A DNA stretch of 64,000 nt from NCBI RefSeq assembly GCF_009733795.1, contig NZ_WNXX01000006.1:1-64000 (forward strand), written 5' to 3'. This stretch comes from Actinotalea caeni (GTDB taxonomy: Bacteria; Actinomycetota; Actinomycetes; Actinomycetales; Beutenbergiaceae). The notes under the pieces are model-generated. The model had not been told where the DNA came from. It made no database searches and worked only from the letters and a program-made list of their open reading frames with translations. Both the position numbers and the translations under genes were made by a program. This document shows positions 2,936 through 17,117 of the stretch, piece after piece. Every line of letters starts with the position of its first letter. Position 1 is the first letter of the stretch.

Positions 2936-4537
2936 ATGGGCGACTACTTCGACTGGTGGTGGAAGGGCGGCAGCTGGTACGACCTGCAGCAGCGCGAGCA
3001 GATCGAGGCGCTGTCGCTGAGCCAGTCGCGCGCGGCGGCCCGGCTGCGGTCGGAGCTGCGCCAGGAGGCGAAGCGGTCCGAGGACCTCGCGACGCGGCTG
3101 TCCCGGCTGGAGGACGCGGTCGTCGCGATCGTCGAGCTCGAGGACCTGCGCGGCGTGCTCGACACCTTCTCCGACGCCGTCGCGACGCGGCGCTACGCGC
3201 GTGACGTGCTCGCGCAGATCCCCGCTCTCGGCCGGGTCCCCAGCAGCACCTCGCCGACACCGCCGCCGGACGTGCCCGGCTACTGGTTGCACCCGGCCGT
3301 CCGGTCGGTCGACGCCGCCCTGCACGGCGACGCGGCGACCCAGGCGGCCGCGAGCGCCGAGGCCCGGCGTCGCGACCCGGTGCGCACCGCGCAGTTCCTC
3401 GCCGCGGTCGCGATCCTCACCCGCTCCGACGTGGCCGACGACGACCTCGCCACGCTGTTCCCGACCAGCCGGAGGGTGAGCACCTACCAGCGTGCGCTGT
3501 GGCTCGCGGTCGCCGAGGGTGGGCTGGGCGAGGAGGCCCGGCGCGGGCTCGCGCAGGCGATCGCGTGGGTGCTCGCGCAGGAGACCACGCAGCCGGCGCA
3601 GCCGGAGGGCGACCTCGTGCAGGTCCGGATGCCCGGCCCGCGCGTCACCCCGGACGACCTCGACGAGGTCGTCACGAGTCACCTGCTCGGACGTCGGACG
3701 CCCCCGGCCGACACCGCCTCGGCCACCGAGGCGCTGGCCGACCTGCGCGCCCTGGTCGCAGCGGCCGCCGCGGCCGGCCGCACGCTGCCGGCGGCCGGCG
3801 AGGTGCCCGACGGCGTCGCGGACCTGCTGGCGCAGGTCGTCAGTGCGGGCGCGCCGGGGGAGGAGCCGGTGGTCGAGCGGATCATCGAGATCCGGCAGGC
3901 GCTCGCGGCCATCGGGGCGTCGACGACGATCGCGGCGCCGGCGCTGCTCGACGAGGACGAGCTCGACGTCGTCGACCTGCTGCGCGCGGACCTGTCGGCG
4001 GACGGGTCCCCGGGCGCCCGCGCGGTCGCCGTCGCGGCGCTGCAAGGGCCGATCGAGGCCGTCGCCGACCGGCTGGCCGCGCTCGCGCAGCAGCCGCTGC
4101 CCGACGGCGAGCGGGTCCGCGTCGCGGGCGGCATCTCGGTCGACATCACCTCGGCAGGGCCGGTCGACGGCGGCTGGCGCGCCCGGCTCACCGACCGGGT
4201 CGCGGCCATGCACCCGACAGAGCCGTACCTCGGCTCCAGGATGATCGGCGGTGGCGTCGTCGCGGTGCTCGCGCTCGTGCTCGGCGTCACGAGCGGGCCG
4301 GGCTGGCTGCTGCTTCTCGTCCCCGCGCTCGGGATGGCCGGTCACGCCGCCTGGCAGTGGCAGTCCTCACGGGAGCGCCGCGAGTCCGCGGTGCGTCACG
4401 CGCTCACGCAGGCCGAGGCAACCATCGCCGATCGCACGGCGCGGCTGGCCGGCGACCTGGTGTCGCTGCGGCAGCGGGTCGACCGAGTGCCGGCCGACCT
4501 GCACGAGGTCCGCACGACGCTGCCTGTCGTGGTCTGA
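2936..4537 (+). CDS. Membrane-anchored coiled-coil hypothetical protein
   Basis: I do not recognise this 533-residue protein. The N-terminus is rich in aromatic residues (DYFDWWWKGG). Residues about 20-75 are charged and heptad-like (RLRSELRQEAKRSEDLATRL), suggesting a coiled coil. A long Ala/Asp/Leu-rich helical middle follows. Near residues 437-475 there is a hydrophobic hairpin (VVAVLALVLGV, then WLLLLVPALGMAG), after which comes another helical stretch with LAGDLVSLRQRVDRV. It is likely held in the membrane by the two C-terminal segments with the coiled coil in the cytoplasm. The ATG at 2936 is chosen because a -10 box lies 6 nt upstream. It appears monocistronic; neighbours give no functional clue. 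Confidence 0.75.
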   Translation: MGDYFDWWWKGGSWYDLQQREQIEALSLSQSRAAARLRSELRQEAKRSEDLATRLSRLEDAVVAIVELEDLRGVLDTFSDAVATRRYARDVLAQIPALGRVPSSTSPTPPPDVPGYWLHPAVRSVDAALHGDAATQAAASAEARRRDPVRTAQFLAAVAILTRSDVADDDLATLFPTSRRVSTYQRALWLAVAEGGLGEEARRGLAQAIAWVLAQETTQPAQPEGDLVQVRMPGPRVTPDDLDEVVTSHLLGRRTPPADTASATEALADLRALVAAAAAAGRTLPAAGEVPDGVADLLAQVVSAGAPGEEPVVERIIEIRQALAAIGASTTIAAPALLDEDELDVVDLLRADLSADGSPGARAVAVAALQGPIEAVADRLAALAQQPLPDGERVRVAGGISVDITSAGPVDGGWRARLTDRVAAMHPTEPYLGSRMIGGGVVAVLALVLGVTSGPGWLLLLVPALGMAGHAAWQWQSSRERRESAVRHALTQAEATIADRTARLAGDLVSLRQRVDRVPADLHEVRTTLPVVV

Positions 4538-16361: not shown

Positions 16362-16367
16362 TACCGT
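16362..16367 (+). promoter_or_regulatory. -10 box of a leaderless promoter
   Basis: TACCGT ends 6 nt before the GTG at 16374. Confidence 0.55.
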
Positions 16368-16373
16368 CGATCC

Positions 16374-17117
16374 GTGAGCTTCTACCCGGACGGGCAGCCC
16401 GACATCCCGAACCAGACCCCGGTCCCGGGCACGACACCGCCCGAGCAGCCGGGCCGCCGTCTCGCGCGCGCGCTGACGCGGACCGCCGTCATCAACGGCG
16501 TCGTGCTCCTGGTCGCGATCCTGCTCGCCTACGTCGTGCCGATCACCGACGACCCCGACACGGCGCTGACGATCGTCGTCGTGGCCGCGGTCGCGACCGC
16601 GCTGCACACCACCAGCGTCGTCATGAAGGAGAACAAGCGGCGGCAGGCCGGGCTCGGCGCGATCCCGGCGCCCCCGCCGCCCGGCGCGAGCGGCCGCGTG
16701 ACCGCCGGCCCGACCACGGCGCCCACACCCCCGGGCGCCGTCCCGCCCGGCACGCCCGACGGCGCCACCGCGCCCGGCATCCCCTACGGAGCCGCTGCAC
16801 CCGGTGCGACGGGCGCGAGCCCGTACCTCACCTCCGCGGGCGCGGGCCCGCAGGGCTTCGCGATGACGATCGAGGACGTCTTCACGATCACCGGCCGCGG
16901 CACGGTCGTCACGGGACGGGTCGGCAGCGGCCAGGTGCGCACCGGCCAGGCGGTCGCGGTCGTGCGCAACGGCCAGGTGGTGGCGGAGTCCACGATCGGC
17001 GGCGTCGAGATGTTCCGGAAGCTCACCGATGTCGCGAGCGCCGGCGAGAACGTCGGGCTGCTGCTCAGCGGGCTCAGCCGTTCCGACCTCCAGCGCGGCG
17101 ACGTCGTCTCCGCCTGA
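16374..17117 (+). CDS. Membrane protein with an isolated EF-Tu domain-2 module
   Basis: 247 residues. Residues about 1-30 are hydrophilic. Two membrane segments follow (VINGVVLLVAILLAYVVPIT and ALTIVVVAAVATALHTTSVV). A Pro/Gly/Thr-rich linker (about 100-150) leads to a C-terminal domain closely resembling EF-Tu domain 2: EDVFTITGRGTVVTGRV, VEMFRKLTDVASAGENVGLLL and LSRSDLQRGDVVS. EF-Tu has nearly these words where the beta barrel meets the aminoacyl-tRNA end. There is no GTPase domain: no P-loop, no NKxD. So the translation-factor barrel has been reused on a membrane anchor. Function unknown. It converges on the RND gene with 17 nt between stops. Confidence 0.8.
   Translation: MSFYPDGQPDIPNQTPVPGTTPPEQPGRRLARALTRTAVINGVVLLVAILLAYVVPITDDPDTALTIVVVAAVATALHTTSVVMKENKRRQAGLGAIPAPPPPGASGRVTAGPTTAPTPPGAVPPGTPDGATAPGIPYGAAAPGATGASPYLTSAGAGPQGFAMTIEDVFTITGRGTVVTGRVGSGQVRTGQAVAVVRNGQVVAESTIGGVEMFRKLTDVASAGENVGLLLSGLSRSDLQRGDVVSA

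Follow-up and report, generated by a model that had tools for sequence, protein, structure and literature searches.

In the elongation factor EF-Tu, domain 2 usually makes up a third of a machine that is switched by GTP. Pbp11 (NCBIfam NF041207, 104 model positions), an archaeal protein without a membrane anchor, is named as a tRNA-binding protein. A further family that bears on the present locus is the Rv2743c family (PF25587), which we take to be PspM. The window analyzed here, a stretch of 64,000 nucleotides from Actinotalea caeni, encodes a protein that shows likenesses to each of them. Its C-terminal domain is 58% identical to domain 2 (D2) of the EF-Tu of the same genome, is predicted to form the same barrel and keeps the ten D2 residues that face the tRNA end. 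In contrast to EF-Tu, however, the protein possesses neither a GTPase domain nor domain 3 and has two membrane helices with a linker in their place, and its gene has a leaderless-type start that was found in none of the 89 tuf genes scored. The EF-Tu model TIGR00485 yielded 91.3 bits, compared with the 522.4 bits set for the whole protein, and covered residues 160-246 only. The Pbp11 model aligned to the same D2 stretch, with an E-value of 0.0025 (17.7 bits) for the 90-residue stretch and of 0.025 (14.5 bits) when the full-length sequence was used, both below its cut-off of 100. The Rv2743c-family model gave a weak match in four of the seven membrane-type proteins described below (best E 0.0036); in the window protein this match extends over residues 28-101 (16455-16676) with 16.4 bits, below the cut-off of 27.7, and may reflect hydrophobicity alone.

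The open reading frame has precisely the position given by the first-pass annotation, and the gene shows a coding signature, with GC fractions of 0.72, 0.59 and 0.96 at the three codon positions over 16374-17117. From the N-terminus onward, the product has a tail and two membrane helices, which a low-complexity linker connects to D2. The features are the following:

16362..16367, plus strand: −10-like hexamer TACCGT, 6 nt 5' of the GTG (leaderless-type start)
16374..17117, plus strand: whole gene, 247 aa, GTG start and TGA stop (open reading frame and codon-position GC)
16380..16430, plus strand: N-terminal tail motif FYPDG...IPNQTPVPG, residues 3-19 (alignment and motif scan)
16482..16544, plus strand: membrane segment 1, about residues 37-57 (hydropathy peak of 2.67 at 39-57; AlphaFold2 helix 26-57)
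16557..16625, plus strand: membrane segment 2, about residues 62-84 (hydropathy peak of 1.98 at 65-83; AlphaFold2 helix 61-93)
16653..16850, plus strand: Pro/Ala/Gly-rich linker, residues 94-159 (low model confidence)
16851..17114, plus strand: EF-Tu domain 2, residues 160-247 (profile matches, fold, pocket residues)

The two membrane segments that the first-pass annotation had placed in the N-terminal half were recovered by hydropathy and AlphaFold2 alike. Its statement that a GTPase domain is lacking also held, as neither the Pfam nor the NCBIfam search gave a match to such a domain at E-values up to 1. Basic residues flank both helices and the loop between them is acidic, an arrangement that, by the positive-inside rule, would make both the tail and D2 cytoplasmic, and D2 is probably displayed on the cytoplasmic side of the membrane. 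The AlphaFold2 model has block pLDDT values of 38-61 over residues 91-160. The tail motif is present in six of the seven membrane-type proteins, and the tail had the lowest dN of four protein parts in all three same-genus pairs. Among the same-genus proteins the tail is thus the best conserved part, exceeding D2, and may be a docking peptide.

The words that the first-pass annotation called nearly identical to EF-Tu domain 2 (GRGTVVTGRV, VEMFRKL, AGENVGLLL and RGDVVS) are all found in the translation; from the MFRK word it had suggested derivation from tuf and not just a shared barrel fold. The Pfam model for EF-Tu domain 2 (PF03144, GTP_EFTU_D2) matched residues 176-245 with an E-value of 4.3e-15 and 56.3 bits, above its cut-off of 30.3, and it matched all seven membrane-type members (E up to 1). 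When residues 160-247 were considered against translation-factor barrels, the NCBIfam EF-Tu models, which matched residues 160-246 only (E of about 5e-26), were far ahead of EF-1alpha (3.5e-15), SelB (1.1e-9) and CysN and IF-2 (0.003-0.004). Bacterial EF-Tu chains came first among the PDB sequence matches of the D2 stretch. AlphaFold2 was run on an alignment of the window protein, L004 as one relative, and 26 stretches of EF-Tu D2 taken from contigs of the viral collection. The model displayed a beta barrel at residues 163-246 (block pLDDT 91-97), and its best fold matches in the PDB were to EF-Tu D2. The first Foldseek match, 7vmc, had an rmsd of 1.4 over 86 columns, and the 50 matches listed were all EF-Tu or EF-Tu-holding complexes (rmsd 1.0-2.3 over 86-92 columns). 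Profile, identity and Foldseek evidence, together with the barrel control described below, support a specific relationship with EF-Tu over one with translation barrels at large. Given the significant matches, the EF-Tu Foldseek matches and the barrel control, a spurious resemblance or a generic barrel is extremely improbable. An artefact, such as a pseudogene or an assembly error, was rejected because of six membrane-type homologues with open frames, the coding signature and the confident model.

A GTPase-less EF-Tu D2 was found in 18 of the 24 genomes searched of the window's family. Seven of these cases, the window counted, are of the membrane type (genera g1, g5 and g9), and 11 are of a short type (g7 and g8) which begins with (M/V)FW(R/K) and has no long hydrophobic stretch by eye. 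No clear case outside the family was found in an order-wide search of 79 genomes, 6 of them from the window's family. In 148 genomes of the class and among the matches listed for 149 genomes of the phylum (the phylum-wide result leaves out the short frames G166, G173, G131 and G231 near contig ends), the other clear cases were in the mycobacterium-like genus g54, inferred to be Mycobacterium, where a D2-only protein, some 85 residues long, occurred in 19 of the 60 genomes sampled. The D2-only type is also present in L004 (Mycobacterium sp. AZCC_0083), whose D2 groups with the g54 proteins (support 100/99). With the 18 family genomes and the 19 genomes of g54, the standalone domain recurs among relatives and is no isolated case. 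The N-terminal part varies among the types, being a membrane part, an FW(R/K) start or absent.

Other D2-like proteins were observed next to tuf. In a genome from another family of the order, a divergent frame of 133 residues lies directly after tuf (L116:4716-5114), and in genus g7 a second small D2-like protein, starting with MGWFTQGND, is encoded directly downstream of tuf (L021:2200-2586, L019, L020 and L028). The one protein of this kind that was scanned gave a weak PF03144 match (E 1.6e-4, below the cut-off).

A D2 tree was calculated from 143 rows and 91 columns; the alignment and the tree do not include five D2-like proteins encoded next to tuf, and the frames L082 and L191 at contig edges, being cut-off EF-Tu, were dropped from the standalone set. 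A branch with support 100/91 separated the 105 EF-Tu rows from the rest, the membrane and short types grouped together (99/87), and the D2-only type stood apart (100/99), while the deep branching order is unsure because of the 91 columns and the long branches. Derivation of the gene by recent copying of tuf within the same genome is not supported by this tree, within the same bounds of 91 columns and long branches. Since EF-Tu and the standalone D2s of the family lie in separate tree groups, either an old split or fast-evolving standalone forms would be indicated. D2 evolves fast, with dN of 0.28-0.39 and dS of 0.39-0.62 in three same-genus pairs.

A phage origin was rejected, as none of 38 viral-contig loci was of the membrane or short type. 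A frame with a GTPase motif was present in 32 of these loci, and five of the other six are EF-Tu, either cut at a contig end (L120, L129, L143 and L153) or split in two frames (L154). In the last one, L123 (match 3527-3781), a short contig of the viral collection, a non-EF-Tu N-terminal stretch is joined to EF-Tu from before domain 2, and misassembly is possible. Searches against phage families returned weak matches only, the best of them (E 0.006) to a family of translation elongation factors. A role as a defence system was rejected as well, no PADLOC family being matched at E up to 0.1 by the three proteins scanned, namely that of the window, a short-type one and a D2-only one. Nothing on a standalone or membrane-bound bacterial EF-Tu D2 was recognised among the best-ranked literature matches, which is weak evidence of absence as human EFTUD2 crowds the results.

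PMC4329189 assigns D2 residues of EF-Tu to three sites of the tRNA end, with Ile231, Val237, Leu289 and Glu271 at adenine 76, Glu226, Asp227, Phe229, Thr239 and Asn285 at the aminoacyl group (plus His67 outside D2), and Arg300 at the 5' phosphate (plus Lys90 outside D2). Judged from the alignment span and the residue letters, window residue numbers plus 59 give the EF-Tu numbering of that paper, and the pocket residues of the window protein are E167, D168, F170, I172, V178, T180, E212, N226, L230 and R241. The window protein is identical at all ten of the D2 residues named there. The comparison set consisted of 36 other positions that are conserved in at least 95% of the 105 EF-Tu rows. In the membrane type (n = 7) mean retention was 0.96 at the ten pocket positions and 0.57 elsewhere (permutation p 0.0007), in the short type (n = 11) 0.75 and 0.49 (p 0.03), and in the D2-only type (n = 20) 0.79 and 0.54 (p 0.05), where the significance is overstated since the pocket positions cluster in the sequence (EDVFTITGRGTVVTG) yet were treated as independent. 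The p values of the short and D2-only types are borderline. The short type often lacks Asn285 (kept in 0.18) and Arg300 (0.36), and the D2-only type often lacks Glu226 (kept in 0.05) and Arg300 (0.15).

As a barrel control, the other D2 matches in the genome, nine in all, were aligned except for L242. The genome's own EF-Tu was identical at 10 of 10 pocket positions, whereas seven non-EF-Tu stretches, presumably EF-G, CysN, IF-2 twice, a TypA-like protein and two more, were identical at 0-4 of 10 each. Over aligned cells, the pocket identity of these seven barrels amounted to 8/62, 11/61 and 9/68 in three alignment modes, the control barrels being distant from EF-Tu and their alignment uncertain. 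Since they mostly differ there, the pocket residues do not seem to be required by the barrel as such. A new finding is that, in proteins lacking a GTPase domain, the D2 residues of all three sites (A76, aminoacyl group, 5' phosphate) have been selectively retained.

A further feature concerns the start of the gene. A TANNNT hexamer lies 6-8 nt before the start in all seven membrane-type and in 10 of the 11 short-type genes, in the form of TACCGT, TAGCGT, TAGCCT, TACGGT or TAACGT; as related genes, these 18 are not independent. The hexamer also precedes 11 of the 20 D2-only genes. In addition to the 89 tuf genes scored, 13 more were without a recognised start. Among other genes of the same loci, for which gene calls are crude, 39 of 298 have the hexamer at the called start; when any start in the first 40 codons was allowed, the numbers were 56 of 298 for all and 46 of 236 for those seeming to begin a transcription unit. 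From the position of the hexamer, transcription would seem to begin at the start codon itself, giving an mRNA of the leaderless type. Leaderless mRNAs are reported for many actinobacterial genes (PMC3160421 and PMC3898074). The leaderless-type start in 17 of the 18 family genes, as opposed to none of the tuf genes scored, is a new observation.

In the window, the gene is located between a divergent gene for a luciferase-like monooxygenase and a convergent AcrB/RND-type efflux gene, which is followed by a MarR regulator gene. The luciferase-like and RND efflux genes are present in all three loci of the window's genus. Of the ten short-type loci compared, seven have a gene for an APH-family kinase upstream and seven a phosphoribosyltransferase gene, with an epimerase-like gene in convergent orientation. 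The D2-only type occurs in several genomic settings; in g54 the gene was found just upstream of a same-strand gene that is amino-acid permease-like by its sequence (L209, L211, L212, L213, L216 and L225). A conserved operon partner was rejected, as none is common to the three types. This absence of a shared partner hints at a target present in every cell, which might be tRNA, the ribosome or a drug that reaches EF-Tu. Partnership with transferases that use aminoacyl-tRNA for lipid or cell-wall modification is not supported either. LPG synthase (PF09924) was detected in none of the three genomes of the window's genus and in nine of the 24 of the family, and FemAB (PF02388) in none of the 24 family genomes (E up to 1e-5 for both). 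As neither enzyme was found in the window's genus, delivery to these most evident consumers of aminoacyl-tRNA at the membrane is not supported.

We tentatively propose that the protein, anchored by its two helices, presents its GTPase-less D2 as a membrane-tethered, GTP-independent receptor for charged-tRNA ends, a reading that we regard as quite possible though short of probable. D2 would bind the charged CCA end of an aminoacyl-tRNA, or a like-shaped molecule, and, through the anchor, such binding would be focused at the membrane, making the protein a local tether or a sensor of charged tRNA. Because domains 1 and 3 are missing, binding would be weak and independent of GTP. While tRNA-end binding at the membrane would fit the retained pocket, the affinity may be too low to matter, since domain 1 with its His67 and Lys90 is missing along with domain 3. 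Other observations also stand against a receptor, namely that no aminoacyl-tRNA-using membrane enzyme explains the protein, that the neighbourhoods differ between the types and that D2 evolves fast.

The fast protein evolution would suit a barrel that has been kept as a small interaction module unrelated to tRNA, with pocket residues persisting by slow loss. The variable N-terminal parts point in the same direction, as does the fact that the short and D2-only types have lost part of the pocket; we nevertheless consider such reuse or relic status unlikely, as the pocket is kept above other EF-Tu-invariant positions in all three types and most pocket residues are not shared by the other D2 barrels of this genome. 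D2 might instead dock on the 30S shoulder in the way that EF-Tu domain II contacts 16S helix 5 (PMC10901736), and thereby keep ribosomes near the membrane. The GRG loop (G233, R234 and G235) is kept at 0.91-1.0 in both family types, and the varied neighbourhoods agree with a ribosome tether, which could work without any partner gene. However, the retention figures cover the tRNA pocket only and D2 alone would offer little area for 30S binding, so that tethering of ribosomes also seems improbable to us.

The remaining alternative concerns antibiotics. A D2 that soaks up domain-2-binding thiopeptides of the GE2270A/thiomuracin type, or toxins that hijack EF-Tu, would shield EF-Tu as a decoy. GE2270A sits on EF-Tu domain II without touching domains I and III (PMC9529903), so that its binding to a D2 on its own is conceivable. 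Among the structural matches are complexes of EF-Tu with a thiomuracin analogue and GE2270A (5jbq and 1d8t). The RND-type efflux and MarR genes that adjoin the window gene and the APH-family gene that precedes the short type would also agree with a decoy. Nevertheless, we consider a decoy very unlikely, as a membrane protein would be a poor sponge compared with the very abundant EF-Tu, and the efflux neighbour is convergent, lies on the opposite strand and is common only within the genus.

The charged-tRNA receptor can be extended to a scenario for the whole group, which we regard as rather doubtful. Actinobacteria would once or twice have cut the domain that binds the aminoacyl end out of EF-Tu, as a GTP-independent receptor for charged tRNA, and in the lineage of the window this receptor would have been attached to the membrane on its cytoplasmic side, enabling the membrane to sense or hold aminoacyl-tRNA. 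If this is true, a lineage-wide family that has kept just D2 with its aminoacyl-adenosine pocket, anchored or alone, would represent a minimal reader of charged tRNA; if thiopeptides are bound instead, the proteins would be an unusual decoy against antibiotics that target EF-Tu.
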